Source of the DNA: Halobacteriales archaeon YIM A00013
Lineage (GTDB): Archaea > Halobacteriota > Halobacteria > Halobacteriales > Haloarculaceae
DNA length: 64,000 nt
Assembly (NCBI GenBank): GCA_025041195.1
Contig: JAKCFM010000001.1
Span: 744,001 to 808,000 of the forward strand
Direction: 5' to 3'
Shown here: positions 49,276 to 57,517 of the stretch, in pieces
Layout of the letters: each line of letters opens with the position of its first letter
Numbering within the stretch: the stretch's first letter is position 1
Made by a program: the position numbers and the translations under genes
Notes under the pieces: model-generated
Databases searched by the model: none
Told to the model about the DNA's origin: nothing
Seen by the model: the letters and a program-made list of their open reading frames with translations, nothing else

Positions 49276-49572
49276 TTACTTAAGAATTCCTTTCGACTGT
49301 GAGCGATTCTGTTGTTGGAGTTGCTGTTGAATGTCCTCAATCTGTTCGCGGGCATGTGAGAACAGTCGCTCTGACTCTAGTTCGGTCTGGGCCCTGATCG
49401 TCTCAAGTTCTTCTTTGAGCCGATCAGTCTGTGTTTCGTCAGATTGTTGCTCCATTCCGAGACGGTCGCGGGCTCTCATCTCCATGGTTGTGGATGATTC
49501 CGATAGCCCCGACAGCAGCTCCTCACCCGCTCGCTTGATGTAATACCAGGCGTCACTGTAATGTTTGTTCAT
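49276..49572 (-). CDS. Coiled-coil haloarchaeal protein (DUF7553-like)
   Basis: 98 residues starting MNKHYSDAWYYIKRAGEELL, a conserved N-terminus of a small haloarchaeal family (DUF7553, as I recall it). The rest is a long Glu/Gln-rich helix with heptad spacing (RLKEELETIRAQTELESERL), so it probably forms a coiled coil. It lies beside the tRNA and its last codons overlap the tRNA promoter. Confidence 0.7.
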   Translation of the reverse strand: MNKHYSDAWYYIKRAGEELLSGLSESSTTMEMRARDRLGMEQQSDETQTDRLKEELETIRAQTELESERLFSHAREQIEDIQQQLQQQNRSQSKGILK

Positions 49573-49703
49573 GTCACACAATTCAGCGGTCCGGAATAAA
49601 GCGATTCTGACGGACCGCTGCTGAATTGGATCGGAATTACACGACCAATTGTTGTACTCACCTCTCGTTCACCGACGGCTTTGTCAGTGACACCGAACGT
49701 ATT

Positions 49704-50057
49704 TCAGTTTCCGGTTCGGTCTTTGTACTCGCTTCTGGCCGCCGTGACTGCGGAGGCCACAATCGCGAGCATATCGAACATATCGAGTTCACGGTTGCCG
49801 TTACCGGTTGCTACGTCAACGACGGAATCGTCATTGGTGTCGTCTTCGTCAGCTGTTGCGGTGGTTGCGATCGATCTGGACGGCTCCGACTCGTCCGCAT
49901 CCGTTTCAGTTGTGTCTGTGGATGCGGATTTACGGCGGCGCAAAAGCACAAACAGACCACTTGCGACTGCGATGAGCAACAGCCCAGTGTGTTTTTTTGA
50001 ACCAGGACCCGTCGTTCCGAGCAGTGACGTGCTGGCCAGGCGTGAGCGAATTGTCAT
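49704..50057 (-). CDS. Hypothetical single-helix membrane protein
   Basis: 117 residues. A short Ser/Thr-rich N-terminus leads to one helix (HTGLLLIAVASGLFVLL) with basic RRRKS on the inside, followed by a long acidic Thr/Asp/Glu-rich cytoplasmic tail. The end (LDMFDMLAIVASAVTAARSE) may form a second amphipathic helix. No family recognised. Confidence 0.55.
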   Translation of the reverse strand: MTIRSRLASTSLLGTTGPGSKKHTGLLLIAVASGLFVLLRRRKSASTDTTETDADESEPSRSIATTATADEDDTNDDSVVDVATGNGNRELDMFDMLAIVASAVTAARSEYKDRTGN

Positions 50058-50153: not shown

Positions 50154-50657
50154 TTACAGCAGACAACTCGCCAGAGTGGGGCCTCCCGAACGAAACAGCT
50201 CAGCAGCCAGTACCGGAACGACTGCCGCACACAACGAAAATCCCGCTGCTCTGAATTCTGGAGATCCACTCGCCGCACCAGCGAGTTCGCGCATAGCGCG
50301 GAGCAAGAATTTCAAGGCAAACAGCCCGATCGTAATCTGCACCACGGTGCCAACCAAGCCCGGGATCCCTACCCCGAACCATTGGGACTGACAGACGACT
50401 CGCGGTATGTCAAAGCCGATCCACTGTGCAAATCCGAGACCCACCCACAGTGGACAAAAGATCGCTACTGTGATTCGGATTGAACTCCACAGATCTGCTT
50501 TGCCGTCCTGTAATAATAGCCCGATAACAGTTGACCACACCCACCCGACGGTCCCCGACAGACCGGCCATGAGTCCTCCACCGCCGAACGCTGGAACAAT
50601 ACCTAGCAAGCTACTAATCCCACCTACGTACCTAGGTGTACGTAATTCCACGAGCAT
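50154..50657 (-). CDS. Yip1-like multipass membrane protein
   Basis: 167 residues with five helices. WVWSTVIGLLLQDGKADLW and VGLGFAQWIGFDIPRVV frame the middle helices; GLFALKFLLRAMRELAGAAS precedes the last. The pattern resembles Yip1-domain proteins, common in haloarchaea, but support is weak. Function unknown. Confidence 0.55.
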   Translation of the reverse strand: MLVELRTPRYVGGISSLLGIVPAFGGGGLMAGLSGTVGWVWSTVIGLLLQDGKADLWSSIRITVAIFCPLWVGLGFAQWIGFDIPRVVCQSQWFGVGIPGLVGTVVQITIGLFALKFLLRAMRELAGAASGSPEFRAAGFSLCAAVVPVLAAELFRSGGPTLASCLL

Positions 50658-50809: not shown

Positions 50810-53215
50810 ATGACTGTACGTCACGGTCGCTCCAGGCAGGCACTCTCCTTTCTACTTGTCTGGCTGATTGGAGCAATCGCGGTAATCGTTATCCTTCGAA
50901 CAATCGAATCAAGCATACCGTTTACTATCCACAATAATGATGTCTATCTCATCAGTGTTGTCGTTTCGGGCATAGTCCTTCTTGGAGCCAACGCCTACAC
51001 AAAATACCGGGCGACCCAGCGGTCCCGTATCGATCAGCTCTATCATAACGGTGACCCAACAGACGTCTCAACCGCGCTTGATTCGTTAACGGCTCGTGAC
51101 GATCAAGTGCGAGCGGTGGCTGCGCAGTTCGTTGCCGAACAGGTTCGAGACGCCCCAGGAAAGGTCGTAAAACACGCATCAATGGACGTCGAATCGATCG
51201 TCACGCGCATTAGTGCGTGTCTCTCTGACAACGCGGCATCGATCGATGAGCATGCCGCCGTATCGATCAAATTTTTTGCACGGGACTACCCAGGTGCCGT
51301 CCTCGATCACGCCGTGGGGCTCCAGCAGATGTTGGCTACGAAAAACTCACGCGTTCAGGCGAACGTTGCAATCGCACTCGGCAATCTCTCGGCCGCATTT
51401 CCGGAGTTTGGGGCCACGTTCGAGGCAGATTTGCGTGCGCTCGCCGACGACGAAGACCCTGAAGTGAGAGCTGCAGCCTGTATTGCCATGGTACATCTCC
51501 CGTCGGTCGAACCCCACAAACTCCCCGAGTTTACAGACGATACCAGCCCGCTCGTCACCAACGCCGTTGCTGGGGCAACGGCGATGGCAAACGGAGATTC
51601 GAGCGTGGTAGAGCCGTTGTTTCAGGGCGTTGCACTGCCCGAGCAATCGAACACTGCCGGCACCGACCTCCAACCCGCTCCTGCGATGGATTTCGACGCG
51701 GTTGTGGGAATGAATTCAGTGACTGAACTCCTCACAGAACAGGTGATCGACCCCGTTAACGGTGCACTCCCATTTGAGAAATATGGCGCGAATCCCGTTA
51801 CGGGCGTCTTGTTACACGGACCGCCTGGAACGGGAAAATCACATATTGCACGGTGTCTCGCCGGCGAACTTGGCTGGGAGATGCTCGAACTCGATGGAAG
51901 CCGAACGGCACGGTGGGACGAAAATCACCTTCCAGAGCTCTTCGAACAAGCACACCAGAACCAGCCATGTCTCCTCGTTCTCGATGAACTCGACGCAATC
52001 GCCTCGGAGCGATCGAGCACTGGCCAGGGATCGACCACAATGCGTGTTTCGCAGCTACTGCGGGCACTTTCCGACATCGAATCGTCCGATGATATCGTGG
52101 TTGTTGGAACGACTAATCGGCCTGAAGCGATCGATGAAGCAATGCTACGAACTGGTCGATTCGACACGAAAATCCAGGTGCCTGTACCGGATGGATCTAC
52201 TCGCCTGGCGATATTCGACCACCATCTTTCCGTGCCGATTTCACAGTTCGACACGGAGCGATTCGAACGAGAAACGGAGGGGCTCGTCGCTTCGGACATG
52301 GTCGAAATCGCACGCCGAACGACTATCAGGGCGGCCCGTCGAGAGCACGAACAGAACGTTCAGGGATCCGTTACAAACGATGATGTGTTCACCGCCGTGG
52401 CATCGATTTCCGATGAACGAGAGCTCACGGGCGAGTTCGTCCAACGACCGCCGAATCTCACGTTCGATGACGCAGTTGGCGCAGAATCGGTGAAAAACCG
52501 GCTGCAAGAAGTGATCATCGATCCCCTCCAACGGCCAGAGGAACACGAAGCGTACGGCGTTGGCATCGAAAACGGCGTGTTGCTCTATGGACCCCCCGGC
52601 ACGGGGAAAACCCATATGGCTCGATGTCTCGCCGGAGAGCTCGGGTGTGCCTTCGTCAGTATTCAAGCCAGTGATCTGGTGAGCAAATGGGTCGGCGAAG
52701 GCGCACAAAACGTTGCCGCGCTGTTTCGTGAGGCCCGAGACAGCCAGCCGTGTTTGATTGTTATTGATGAGCTGGATGCGCTTGCCACCGACCGTGGTGC
52801 ACAACAGACGATGAGTGAACGACAACAAGTCACACAGCTCCTCACCGAACTCTCTGCCTGCCACGACGATGGTGATTCAGTCGTCGTTGTCGGAGCGACG
52901 AACCGAATCAGCGCGATCGACCCAGCGATGCTCCGAACGGGACGATTCTCTCAAACGATCGAAATTGGGCCGCCGGACGCAGAGGCGCGCGCTGCACTGT
53001 TCGAACACACACTTGACGCACCGACTGGCGAGATTCAGTTCGATGAACTGGGCGCGCAAACGCCAGGATTCGTTGCAAGTGATATCGAACACGTCACCGA
53101 ACGCGCCGCACGCGCCGCATTGGGGCGGACGGAAGACGAAGCGGAGCCGACGCACGTCACCCACTCCGACCTACTCGATGCAATAGCGGACGTCCGGACG
53201 CGAGCAATCGAGTGA
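50810..53215 (+). CDS. Membrane-anchored HEAT-repeat double AAA+ ATPase (CDC48-like)
   Basis: 801 residues in four parts. Two helices near the N-terminus (SFLLVWLIGAIAVIVIL and VYLISVVVSGIVLLGA) anchor it. Residues from about 80 to 270 are HEAT-like helical repeats (RVQANVAIALGNLSAAFPEF, DPEVRAAACIAMVHL). Then two AAA+ domains follow: D1 with Walker A GPPGTGKS at 337-344 and Walker B LLVLDELDAIA; D2 with Walker A GPPGTGKT at 594-601 and Walker B LIVIDELDALA. D2 has the normal pore-loop region (VSKWVGEGAQN), while D1 reads RTARWDENH there, so D1 may not thread substrate. It is convergent with a PH-domain protein. Confidence 0.9.
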   Translation: MTVRHGRSRQALSFLLVWLIGAIAVIVILRTIESSIPFTIHNNDVYLISVVVSGIVLLGANAYTKYRATQRSRIDQLYHNGDPTDVSTALDSLTARDDQVRAVAAQFVAEQVRDAPGKVVKHASMDVESIVTRISACLSDNAASIDEHAAVSIKFFARDYPGAVLDHAVGLQQMLATKNSRVQANVAIALGNLSAAFPEFGATFEADLRALADDEDPEVRAAACIAMVHLPSVEPHKLPEFTDDTSPLVTNAVAGATAMANGDSSVVEPLFQGVALPEQSNTAGTDLQPAPAMDFDAVVGMNSVTELLTEQVIDPVNGALPFEKYGANPVTGVLLHGPPGTGKSHIARCLAGELGWEMLELDGSRTARWDENHLPELFEQAHQNQPCLLVLDELDAIASERSSTGQGSTTMRVSQLLRALSDIESSDDIVVVGTTNRPEAIDEAMLRTGRFDTKIQVPVPDGSTRLAIFDHHLSVPISQFDTERFERETEGLVASDMVEIARRTTIRAARREHEQNVQGSVTNDDVFTAVASISDERELTGEFVQRPPNLTFDDAVGAESVKNRLQEVIIDPLQRPEEHEAYGVGIENGVLLYGPPGTGKTHMARCLAGELGCAFVSIQASDLVSKWVGEGAQNVAALFREARDSQPCLIVIDELDALATDRGAQQTMSERQQVTQLLTELSACHDDGDSVVVVGATNRISAIDPAMLRTGRFSQTIEIGPPDAEARAALFEHTLDAPTGEIQFDELGAQTPGFVASDIEHVTERAARAALGRTEDEAEPTHVTHSDLLDAIADVRTRAIE

Positions 53216-53216
53216 A

Positions 53217-53699
53217 CTATCCGCCATCCGAATGATCGATAATGAGATTCGCGACGTATGACGGTCGTGGAACCTCTTCCAACACAATCTCGGTAGCATT
53301 CGTTCCCGCCGATTCCACTTCGACAGTTCCAACGTTCAACAGTCGTTGAAGCGGTGATTGGGAGTACGACGTGTTCTGAACACTCCGCAGAGAGAGCGTA
53401 TCGATTGTCAGCGAGAACCAGCCCGAACGCTTGTACAGCTCGGTCTCTGTCAGTAGGTAAATGTGCCGTCGGTGGCGAATTATCGCGACAGCACCGCCTA
53501 ACACCCCTACGGCCACCACGACAATCGAGCCGATTCTAATCGTGGCGTCGAACTGAATGGCGCCGTATGCGCCCACCACAACAGCGACCATCGCAGCCAA
53601 CAGCCGATCCGCAATCTGCCAGTGTGTCGGGGTAGCACGCCACACGACGCTCGTCTCACTCTCCGTCTCCACCCAACTTGGTGGGTCATTGGCACTCAT
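53217..53699 (-). CDS. PH-domain membrane protein (bPH2/YdbT-like)
   Basis: 160 residues. Two helices (LLAAMVAVVVGAYGAIQF, GSIVVVAVGVLGGAVAII) precede a small PH-like beta domain with HIYLLTETELYKRSGWFSL, SLRSVQNTSYSQSPLQRLL and VGTVEVES, the typical bacterial PH2 pattern. Members of this family are membrane adaptors. The stop codon is one base from that of the AAA+ gene. Confidence 0.85.
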   Translation of the reverse strand: MSANDPPSWVETESETSVVWRATPTHWQIADRLLAAMVAVVVGAYGAIQFDATIRIGSIVVVAVGVLGGAVAIIRHRRHIYLLTETELYKRSGWFSLTIDTLSLRSVQNTSYSQSPLQRLLNVGTVEVESAGTNATEIVLEEVPRPSYVANLIIDHSDGG

Positions 53700-53772: not shown

Positions 53773-54354
53773 TTACTCGTCTTCAGGCTCAACCACTTCG
53801 GGATCAGCCATCGCGACCTGCAGACTTCGCAGGCCGGTGACCCAGTCAGCAACCGGACCGTACTCGAACTCCTCACCGGTCGATGGATCGAGCTCAGCGC
53901 CGTCGATGATCGATGCGCCGGCCTTGGCGCAGAATTCGAGCGCGGCTTCTATCTCCTCGTCTTGTTCTGCCTCGCGCGCGGCATCAATACACTCTTCGAC
54001 GCCAGCGCGCTCATCGGTGACGATGAACTCTTCGGCGGCGTAAAACACACAGACGAGCGCCGTCTGGACGGCGTTAATCAGCATCAGTGTGTTCTCATTG
54101 TCGGAATCGAGCTCGACTTCGGATAGGACGATCTCACGAACATCAGCGAGCTCCGTGAGCGCCGTTTCATCCTCCAGAACGCCTTCTTCGAAGTCAGAGA
54201 CAATTTTGGCGATCGCGATCACCGTATCATCCTGGAAATTCTGGAGTAGGCGGCCTGATTCTTCGTCTTCGAGGTCGATCTCTTCGGTGGTTAACCGGTC
54301 AATCCAGTTCTGCCACCGTTCTTCGGTGTAATACTCACCCTCGGGAGCACTCAT
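53773..54354 (-). CDS. DUF2150 family protein
   Basis: 193 residues, very acidic and mostly helical. YYTEERWQNWIDRL is the conserved start of DUF2150; ENTLMLINAVQTALVCVFYA and GPVADWVTGLRSLQVAMAD are further family regions. The family is restricted to archaea and its function is unknown. The ATG at 54354 is used; the frame runs four codons further upstream. Confidence 0.85.
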   Translation of the reverse strand: MSAPEGEYYTEERWQNWIDRLTTEEIDLEDEESGRLLQNFQDDTVIAIAKIVSDFEEGVLEDETALTELADVREIVLSEVELDSDNENTLMLINAVQTALVCVFYAAEEFIVTDERAGVEECIDAAREAEQDEEIEAALEFCAKAGASIIDGAELDPSTGEEFEYGPVADWVTGLRSLQVAMADPEVVEPEDE

Positions 54355-54449
54355 ACCACGATACAACAGCCTATCGATGATATGCCTTTCTCACTCACCG
54401 CCGAAATTTGGGGCCAATCACTGCAAACTTCTGTACATTCGATTGGTTC

Positions 54450-55927: not shown

Positions 55928-57517
55928 ATGCAGAGCATGAACGACCGTTCAGGGCTTGCCCGTCGGAATTTCTTGCGGTTGAGTAGTATTGCCGGCGTTG
56001 GGATGCTCCCTGGTGTTGGATCAGCAACACCAGGACGGGATCCGGGGACTAAAGAGAATGAATGGGTCGTGGGGGTGAGCACTGGCGATGAGTCACCAGG
56101 CCGTCTTCTCACCGAGCAGTTGCCCTCGTACTCGACAGTCGTCCACGAAAACGACCGTATGGGCTATGCTTGTGTTACGAGTCCAACCGACCATCGGTCG
56201 AAACGATCCCTGTTCGAAACCCTGTCGACGGCGATTGAAGCTCCAGGACCGGTCAAATACGTCGAACAGAACAGTACGTATTGTGCACAGTATCTTCCAA
56301 ACGACCCGCATTTCGACGAGCAGTACGCTGCCACGACGATCGGGGCGCCAACAGCATGGGATGAAACGCTTGGGAGCAATGATGTGACGATTGCCGTGAT
56401 CGATCAGGGGATGCAGTATGATCATCCCGACCTCTCGGAAAACGTCGCTGCTAACCCTGGTTGGGATTTCATCACAAATTCGCCCGATCCATATCCAGAC
56501 GATCTGGAGGCAGAGCCCCACGGCACCCACGTTGCTGGTATTGCCGGGGCCCGAACCGACAACAACAGCGGGGTCACAGGCATTGGAAACTTTCGTCTCC
56601 TCTCCGCGCGAGTGCTGGACAGGGCGGGACGAGGCTCCGTGACGGATATTGCCGACGGGATTGAGTGGGCCGTCGATCGAGGGGCAGATGTGATCAACCT
56701 CTCGCTCGGTGGCGGTCGCTACTCACAGACGATGCAGAACGCCGTTCGATATGCGAGTGCACACGACGTTCTCGTTGTCGTAGCGGCCGGAAACAGCTCT
56801 GATGGGAAATCGATGTATCCGGCGTCCTATGACGAATGCATCGCCGTATCGGCGCTTGACCCGGATGGAACGCTCTCGTCGTTTTCGAACTACGGTCCCG
56901 CGATAGAACTCGCAGCTCCCGGTCGAAATGTCGTTTCAACCTGGCCGGGGGATGGCTATCGACCGGCGTCTGGAACGTCGATGGCAACGCCGGTGGTGGC
57001 GGGCGTGGCAGGGTTGACACTCTCGAAATGGGATCTCACCAGCGAGCAACTCCGTAGACAGTTGAAACGAACGGCCGTCGATATCGGCCTCTCGGAGCTC
57101 GAACAGGGTGCCGGTCGCATTGACGCCGCGGCAGCGGTACACGCCAGACCGCGTGGCGGGGTTGAAACCGCCATGGAAGAGCAAACACCTGATTCGAATT
57201 CGTTCCGAAACCGCGTCTCTGGTCGGCTTACGGCCCTTGACGATACAGCATATTTCTCGTATTCCTGGGGAACTGACGATCCAGAGTCGATATCAGTCAC
57301 CGTACTGGGTCCAGAGAGCGCTGATTTTGATCTCTATGTAAATGATGGGCGAACTGAGATGCCCGGAACAGACGAGTTCGATTACGCCGGGCGCACAAGC
57401 GCTAGTCACGAACGGGTGACGATTGAGCGTCCCACAACCAGTGTCCCCCTCCAGGTCACCGTCCATGCCTACCATGGGTCGGGTTCGTTCTCACTTGGGT
57501 TTGAAGAGAACTATTGA
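55928..57517 (+). CDS. Subtilisin-family serine protease, Tat-exported
   Basis: 529 residues. The N-terminus has a Tat motif (ARRNFLRLSS), a propeptide to about residue 120, then the S8 catalytic domain: Asp159 in AVIDQGMQYDHPDL, His198 in PHGTHVAGIAG, Asn in VVAAGNSSDG and Ser351 in GTSMATPVVAG. The C-terminal 110 residues are a beta-rich domain of the pre-peptidase type (SFRNRVSGRLTALDD, DFDLYVNDG), as in halolysins. Start is ATG 55928 or 55937. It would degrade proteins outside the cell. Confidence 0.93.
   Translation: MQSMNDRSGLARRNFLRLSSIAGVGMLPGVGSATPGRDPGTKENEWVVGVSTGDESPGRLLTEQLPSYSTVVHENDRMGYACVTSPTDHRSKRSLFETLSTAIEAPGPVKYVEQNSTYCAQYLPNDPHFDEQYAATTIGAPTAWDETLGSNDVTIAVIDQGMQYDHPDLSENVAANPGWDFITNSPDPYPDDLEAEPHGTHVAGIAGARTDNNSGVTGIGNFRLLSARVLDRAGRGSVTDIADGIEWAVDRGADVINLSLGGGRYSQTMQNAVRYASAHDVLVVVAAGNSSDGKSMYPASYDECIAVSALDPDGTLSSFSNYGPAIELAAPGRNVVSTWPGDGYRPASGTSMATPVVAGVAGLTLSKWDLTSEQLRRQLKRTAVDIGLSELEQGAGRIDAAAAVHARPRGGVETAMEEQTPDSNSFRNRVSGRLTALDDTAYFSYSWGTDDPESISVTVLGPESADFDLYVNDGRTEMPGTDEFDYAGRTSASHERVTIERPTTSVPLQVTVHAYHGSGSFSLGFEENY

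Follow-up and report, generated by a model that had tools for sequence, protein, structure and literature searches.

A predicted membrane-anchored HEAT-repeat double AAA+ ATPase of hypha-forming haloarchaea, distinct from the Cdc48 family and a prime suspect in their development

What does a protein that joins two membrane helices, HEAT repeats, and two AAA+ domains do in archaea that form hyphae, and is it a Cdc48, as its published name suggests? The question bears on work on strain YIM 93972, which forms hyphae and spores (Tang et al. 2023, PMC10067837). According to the main text of that paper, 61 genes are present in all 7 morphogenetic strains and absent from the other Halobacteria that it considers, and one of these, ORF_0238, encodes a "distinct homolog of Cdc48". 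Three bald (non-differentiating) mutants all carried a "non-synonymous" change, G1067A, in ORF_0238, and no other gene had a mutation in all of them that alters the protein. The mutants also shared a synonymous change in ORF_0964 and a change upstream of ORF_2797, and the ORF_0238 protein was 3.9-fold down in them. The same main text records that transcripts of transitional mutants, whose weak aerial hyphae persist, also contain G1067A; its sections on these mutations report no complementation of ORF_0238. An addendum (PMC10834514) corrects the genus name only. Here, we describe what is almost certainly the corresponding gene of the related archaeon YIM A00013, which lies in a window of 64,000 nucleotides (positions 744,001 to 808,000 of contig JAKCFM010000001.1; Table 1).

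Table 1. Features of the HEAT-AAA+ gene and its conserved neighbors, in window coordinates.
Feature	Position	Strand	Basis
Complete gene, 801 aa, TM-TM-HEAT-AAA(D1)-AAA(D2)	50810..53215	+	ORF, Pfam, orthologs in genus
Predicted membrane hairpin of two hydrophobic helices (residues 11-29 and 45-63)	50840..50998	+	Kyte-Doolittle scan
HEAT/ARM solenoid, residues 64-275	50999..51634	+	HEAT_2 profile, model, PDB matches
AAA domain D1, residues about 291-540	51680..52429	+	Pfam, intact motifs
Codon 356, TGG (Trp); equivalent YIM 93972 codon predicted to become TAG by G1067A	51875..51877	+	Codon in both genes; PMC10067837
D1 pore-loop-1 region SRTAR-WDEN, residues 364-372	51899..51925	+	Lacks four residues relative to D2, H. 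marina, and H. morrhuae
AAA domain D2, residues about 541-801	52430..53212	+	Pfam, alignment
D2 full pore loop LVSKWVGEG	52676-52702	+	Alignment
Small hydrophobic protein, 167 aa, head-to-head with AAA gene, candidate partner or client	50154..50657	-	Synteny
Small protein with one hydrophobic stretch (small TM), conserved genus neighbor	49704..50057	-	Synteny
DUF7553 protein, conserved genus neighbor	49276..49581	-	Pfam, synteny
DUF2150 protein, opens conserved DUF2150-TatD-NYN-S8 flank	53773..54366	-	Pfam, synteny

The first-pass annotation had proposed that two helices, HEAT-like repeats, and two AAA+ domains are joined in one chain. This architecture was confirmed by the open reading frame, hydropathy, Pfam, and structural models, and it is conserved among orthologs. 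The AAA profile PF00004 matched the protein twice (248.5 bits against a Pfam cut-off of 21.2), which, with the motifs described below, makes it an AAA+ protein. An AlphaFold model of the whole chain, built from 15 sequences, reached a mean pLDDT of 78.4 and a pTM of 0.40, so that its single domains can be used, but not their arrangement; its best matches in the PDB were p97, CDC48A, and NVL. Between YIM A00013 and YIM 93972, the dN/dS ratio of the whole gene was 0.107.

Helices in the whole-chain model, at residues 6-35 and 42-80, match the predicted hairpin region. Both hydrophobic segments were detected at the same threshold in 6 of 7 orthologs, the one from Halococcus morrhuae showing the first segment only, and the dN/dS of the helices between the two YIM strains was 0.39. 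For the part that follows (dN/dS 0.09), the HEAT_2 profile scored 25.9 bits with the full chain as query, just below the Pfam cut-off of 27.7; with the N-terminus alone, it exceeded the cut-off in all 7 distinct orthologs (35.7 to 65.5 bits). Modeled alone from 9 aligned sequences, this part formed an alpha-solenoid with a pLDDT of 85.8 and a pTM of 0.83. Its best structural matches were armadillo/HEAT repeats (Z 18.6 over 192 residues, rmsd 3.2; Foldseek E 1.8e-4). The first-pass annotation had staked its reading on a HEAT fold, and the predicted structure shows one; profile and fold together make this a HEAT/ARM domain. Relatives of the N-terminus also occur by themselves: one locus (L050:828-10491) holds two adjacent HEAT-only membrane ORFs, and in their vicinity a pair of Hsp70 ORFs (380.5 and 435.8 bits) and two ORFs without a Pfam match.

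AAA motifs were found in D1 and D2 of all 7 orthologs; in every one of them, D1 has intact Walker A, Walker B, and sensor 1 motifs and has kept both of its Arg-finger positions. Aligned with D2, SIQASDLVSKWVGEGAQNVA, the D1 segment ELDGSRTAR----WDENHLPE has a pore loop 1 that is four residues short. The first-pass annotation had noted that D1 lacks the normal aromatic pore-loop sequence, and had named homologs with a standard loop as counterevidence. The abnormal D1 loop is confirmed, and such counterevidence exists in part: five of the 7 distinct orthologs have the shortened loop (YIM A00013, YIM 93972, YIM A00010, G361, and Halocatena pleomorpha), whereas Halocatena marina (SRWVGE) and H. 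morrhuae (SKLVGE, without an aromatic residue) keep a full-length one. The five short-loop sequences group together as a clade when D1 is considered (96/95) and again, independently, when D2 is (97/98), in trees from alignments that retained the pore-loop columns. As the short-loop species are monophyletic on D2 as well, a single loss of the loop within the genus is enough to explain the pattern. D1 (dN/dS 0.092 between YIM A00013 and YIM 93972) is constrained as strongly as D2 (0.086), and so is kept in use, without the usual grip in the short-loop species. A weakened grip in the first ring, without an aromatic residue, is also found in p97, so that the loss of the D1 loop is unusual, but not unheard of. 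D2 had been likened to CDC48; at the level of motifs this holds, as its SKWVGEG resembles the pore loop of archaeal CDC48 D2, but it does not extend to family membership.

The full chain has a narrow distribution. Using the N-terminal 327 residues as query, strong full-chain matches (E 4.5e-41 or better) were found in 6 of 391 genomes of the class (YIM A00013, G183, G361, G277, G338, and G253). For 6 further genomes of this search, which were not orthologous, larger loci were read at 7 places (G067, G085, G230, G077, G358 twice, and G366); G358, G265, G274, G355, and G149 were read for their double-AAA genes, and G447 and G448 were added from the family profile search. The gene is present in all 7 genome records of the Halocatena/Actinarchaeum genus of hypha-forming haloarchaea; as two of them, G277 and G391, do not differ over 20 kb, these represent 6 distinct loci. 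Named carriers are Actinarchaeum halophilum YIM 93972, archaeon YIM A00010, H. marina, H. pleomorpha, and H. morrhuae DSM 1307. A profile search of 146 genomes of its own family confined the full chain to the genus, the next-best match (E 9.8e-33) being a HEAT-only membrane protein. In the Halococcus family, 1 of 18 genomes carries the full chain, and H. morrhuae is the only place outside the genus where it was found. We rejected recent mobile or viral cargo as an origin: within the genus, both the gene and the module around it are fixed, 80 pattern matches in viral contigs yielded no confirmed relative, and none of 2086 matching plasmid records or 240 matching phage records matched 80% of the protein at a single place. 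A plasmid search with D2 alone and a viral fold search returned just general AAA kinship.

The gene order DUF7553, small TM protein, and small hydrophobic protein, the last head-to-head with the AAA gene, is identical in all 6 distinct genus loci, and the DUF2150-TatD-NYN-S8 flank follows the AAA gene in 5 of the 6. In H. marina (L041, 3579-12615), the four genes from DUF7553 to AAA are reversed between the same flanking genes, an arrangement that looks as if the module had been inverted as one unit. No Pfam family matched the small hydrophobic protein, and two cysteines are common to all six copies at the AAA loci. Its family was detected in 8 of the 146 family genomes: each of the 7 genus records has 4 to 6 matches, and G398 has a weak one. 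This family with paired cysteines is largely genus-specific, and its other copies that we examined (L132-L137) lie in different neighborhoods. By its position, the small hydrophobic protein is the first candidate for a partner or client of the ATPase. The small TM neighbor is not restricted to the genus, being matched in 17 other genomes of the family. In five relatives with a weak match to it (L123-L127), where we looked for an empty site, this match was not accompanied by the rest of the locus, and no empty site was shown. On its other side, the AAA gene is met by a convergent gene for a bPH_2 membrane-type protein (53217-53699, minus strand). It adjoins the AAA gene in YIM A00013 and YIM 93972, where the DUF2150 flank lies behind it, and is located about 2.8 kb off, on the other side, in H. 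marina; it was not found in the remaining three genus loci.

ORF_0238 (halo.06695) is almost certainly the ortholog at 229418-231823 of CP071306.1, judging by family, position, and distribution. The protein encoded there is 88% identical to that of YIM A00013, in the same synteny, and the locus is the only one with PF00004 before 457 kb. As a check on the ORF number, the 2803 genes in 2,676,592 bp given by PMC10067837 predict about 240 genes up to the locus; a rough count with a crude finder, which undercounts, placed about 207 ahead of it. With the only in-frame start found, nucleotide 1067 of the YIM 93972 gene falls on the middle base of codon 356 (TGG), and G1067A turns this codon into TAG, a stop. 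Of the non-synonymous G-to-A changes that the gene allows, 465 in all, 8 create stops. On the deposited sequence, the product would be a protein of 355 aa that comprises the helices, the HEAT domain, and the beginning of D1 to just past Walker A, with most of D1 and all of D2 lost. The main text of PMC10067837 describes ORF_0238 only as a distinct Cdc48 homolog with a non-synonymous change, and "nonsense", "stop codon", and "truncat" are absent from it. If the stop reading is right, the bald strains would be without the motor altogether, and the drop in ORF_0238 protein would fit a truncated product.

Several observations bear on how far this can be carried. With an identical set of three changes in each of them, the bald mutants could be siblings. 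As G1067A also occurs in the transitional mutants with their weak aerial hyphae, the stop alone may not explain baldness. H. morrhuae carries an ortholog though it is outside the morphogenetic clade, and H. marina, which a reference cited in PMC10999741 calls filamentous in its title, keeps the full-length loop; neither presence of the gene nor loss of the loop therefore tracks morphology one-to-one. As regards the numbering of the paper, a SPOUT methyltransferase gene (PF02598) at 898 kb on the minus strand has G, not C, at nucleotide 309, as against the synonymous C309T of the paper. It fits that change only if the letters were given on the plus strand; by codon reading, G-to-A there (CCG to CCA) keeps proline. 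An M6 peptidase (PF05547), sought for the same check of gene numbering, gave no match anywhere, controls included. Among the open-access journal papers that we searched, we found no follow-up work on the gene and no publication on a HEAT-repeat membrane-anchored archaeal AAA ATPase.

Given this anatomy, we consider it very improbable that the protein is an ordinary Cdc48 paralog acting on soluble clients. The parts of PMC10067837 that treat ORF_0238 place it in the Cdc48 family, and p97 and CDC48 are its closest solved structures, with which it shares the two tandem AAA+ domains. However, the CDC48 family model TIGR01243 scored 334.5 bits against a cut-off of 802.65, and a Cdc48 N-domain was not among the matches at E 0.1 or better for any of the 7 N-termini, which contain HEAT instead. 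Both D1 and D2 also fall outside a 15-row group of CDC48, PAN, and FtsH sequences (support 100/100), in a tree whose deeper split is weak (78/85) and which has no Vps4, AFG2, or NVL rows; three rows (own7k_D1, G274_D2, and Wino_D1) were removed before the second tree. In contrast to p97, CDC48, and VAT, HEAT repeats and predicted membrane helices replace the Cdc48 N-domain, the AAA domains form a separate group, and the D1 pore loop is short. An assignment to ordinary Cdc48 was rejected on score, N-domain, and tree position, and we conclude that the protein is not a member of the Cdc48 family, but, judging by its fold, probably works like one. Membrane-tethered AAA motors are known in Msp1/ATAD1 and FtsH, whose chains each contain a single AAA domain, joined in FtsH by a protease; neither is known to have HEAT repeats. 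The predicted tether is the likeness to these systems, the second AAA domain and the HEAT domain the difference. FtsH itself was rejected: the score was 334.9 bits against 600, and the chain stops just after the D2 lid, without a C-terminal protease. An IetAS-type defense ATPase, paired with an S8 protease whose gene lies 2.7 kb downstream, is extremely unlikely. PADLOC models for IetA match with up to 211 bits, and a subtilase-like ORF (55928-57517) is conserved nearby, but the NCBIfam IteA model scored 205.9 bits against 510, and in YIM A00013 four genes separate the AAA gene from the S8 ORF, on the other strand, so that no protease gene adjoins it and IetA/IteA was rejected; moreover, this is a core gene of the genus, with no confirmed relative in viral contigs.

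The remaining alternatives concern function. The first-pass annotation saw in the protein an archaeal counterpart of the membrane unfoldases that clear damaged membrane proteins. A membrane anchor, HEAT repeats, and an AAA+ motor in one protein would suit such general quality control, as would the Hsp70 genes that adjoin HEAT-only membrane relatives in one genome. Confinement to one genus and one Halococcus among the genomes searched is odd for a housekeeping function, however, and the Hsp70 link is limited to that single genome, no relative of those Hsp70s being found in 12 loci compared, 7 of them with HEAT-only relatives. Together with the lineage-specific membrane neighbors and a viable putative-stop mutant that loses aerial hyphae, this leaves general quality control unsupported, and we regard it as unlikely. 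It is less likely still that the shortened D1 loop continues to grip, with Trp369 replacing the usual aromatic residue: W369 is present in both YIM A00013 and YIM 93972 and a dN/dS of 0.109 shows purifying selection on the region, but the other three short-loop orthologs have QRG, without any aromatic.

The nearest AAA rows in our trees are not Cdc48 proteins, but accessory haloarchaeal double-AAA proteins with varied N-termini (L110-L114). They differ from the HEAT-AAA+ protein in their N-terminal domains, and a scan of five N-termini found no HEAT. Two are 961-aa ORFs from other haloarchaeal genomes (L113:5562-8447, plus strand; L110:9099-11984, minus strand), and the N-terminal part of the L110 protein, scanned alone, matched Tubulin/FtsZ (61.7 bits) and CetZ_C (37.4 bits), making it a CetZ-AAA-AAA fusion. 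Members of another double-AAA subfamily (L111:7310-10602 and L112:7515-10757) lie directly 3' of a gene of the phosphopantothenate synthetase type, which in L111, the one locus scanned, matched PF02006 with 243 bits. Separately, a CDC48-type ATPase on a Halobacterium salinarum plasmid (L115:3141-5791) adjoins an Hsp20 gene.

On balance, we think that the protein is probably a lineage-specific, membrane-anchored, two-ring AAA+ unfoldase or remodeler of hypha-forming haloarchaea that is needed for aerial hyphae. A developmental role is suggested by the confinement of the gene to the genus and one Halococcus, by its lineage-specific membrane neighbors, and by the viable putative-stop mutant without aerial hyphae. 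AAA+ machines form hexameric rings whose pore loops grip the substrate, and in p97, D2 is the main motor. By analogy, six subunits would assemble into stacked rings under the membrane, with six HEAT arms between membrane and motor that bind clients or adaptors and present membrane-associated clients to the rings. D2 would be the principal puller, and a D1 with the short loop may serve as an ATP-binding, nucleotide-controlled structural or gating ring without grip. Membrane-associated proteins would thus be extracted or disassembled, and their removal would let aerial hyphae form. The first-pass proposal that the HEAT repeats capture membrane clients for extraction fares well in its anatomy, which is right and conserved; a capture arm is also the best mechanical reading, one that we infer. 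A bolder version, in which hyphal development runs on a purpose-built HEAT-AAA+ double ring that evolved outside Cdc48, with D1 turned into a gate by the loss of its pore loop, D2 pulling, a lineage-specific family of small membrane proteins (including the head-to-head one) as what is processed, and baldness as the null phenotype, is possible, if rather doubtful as a whole.

Streptomyces-like development in archaea was reported in 2023 without a mechanism, and the gene described here is a prime suspect in the development of hypha-forming archaea. If the protein-altering change common to the bald mutants is a stop in this gene, the leading candidate would shift from a substituted Cdc48 to the loss of a membrane-anchored HEAT-AAA+ motor. 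Among the orthologs, nature also offers a comparison of D1 domains that have a complete pore loop 1 with others that do not, the double-AAA motors being otherwise intact.
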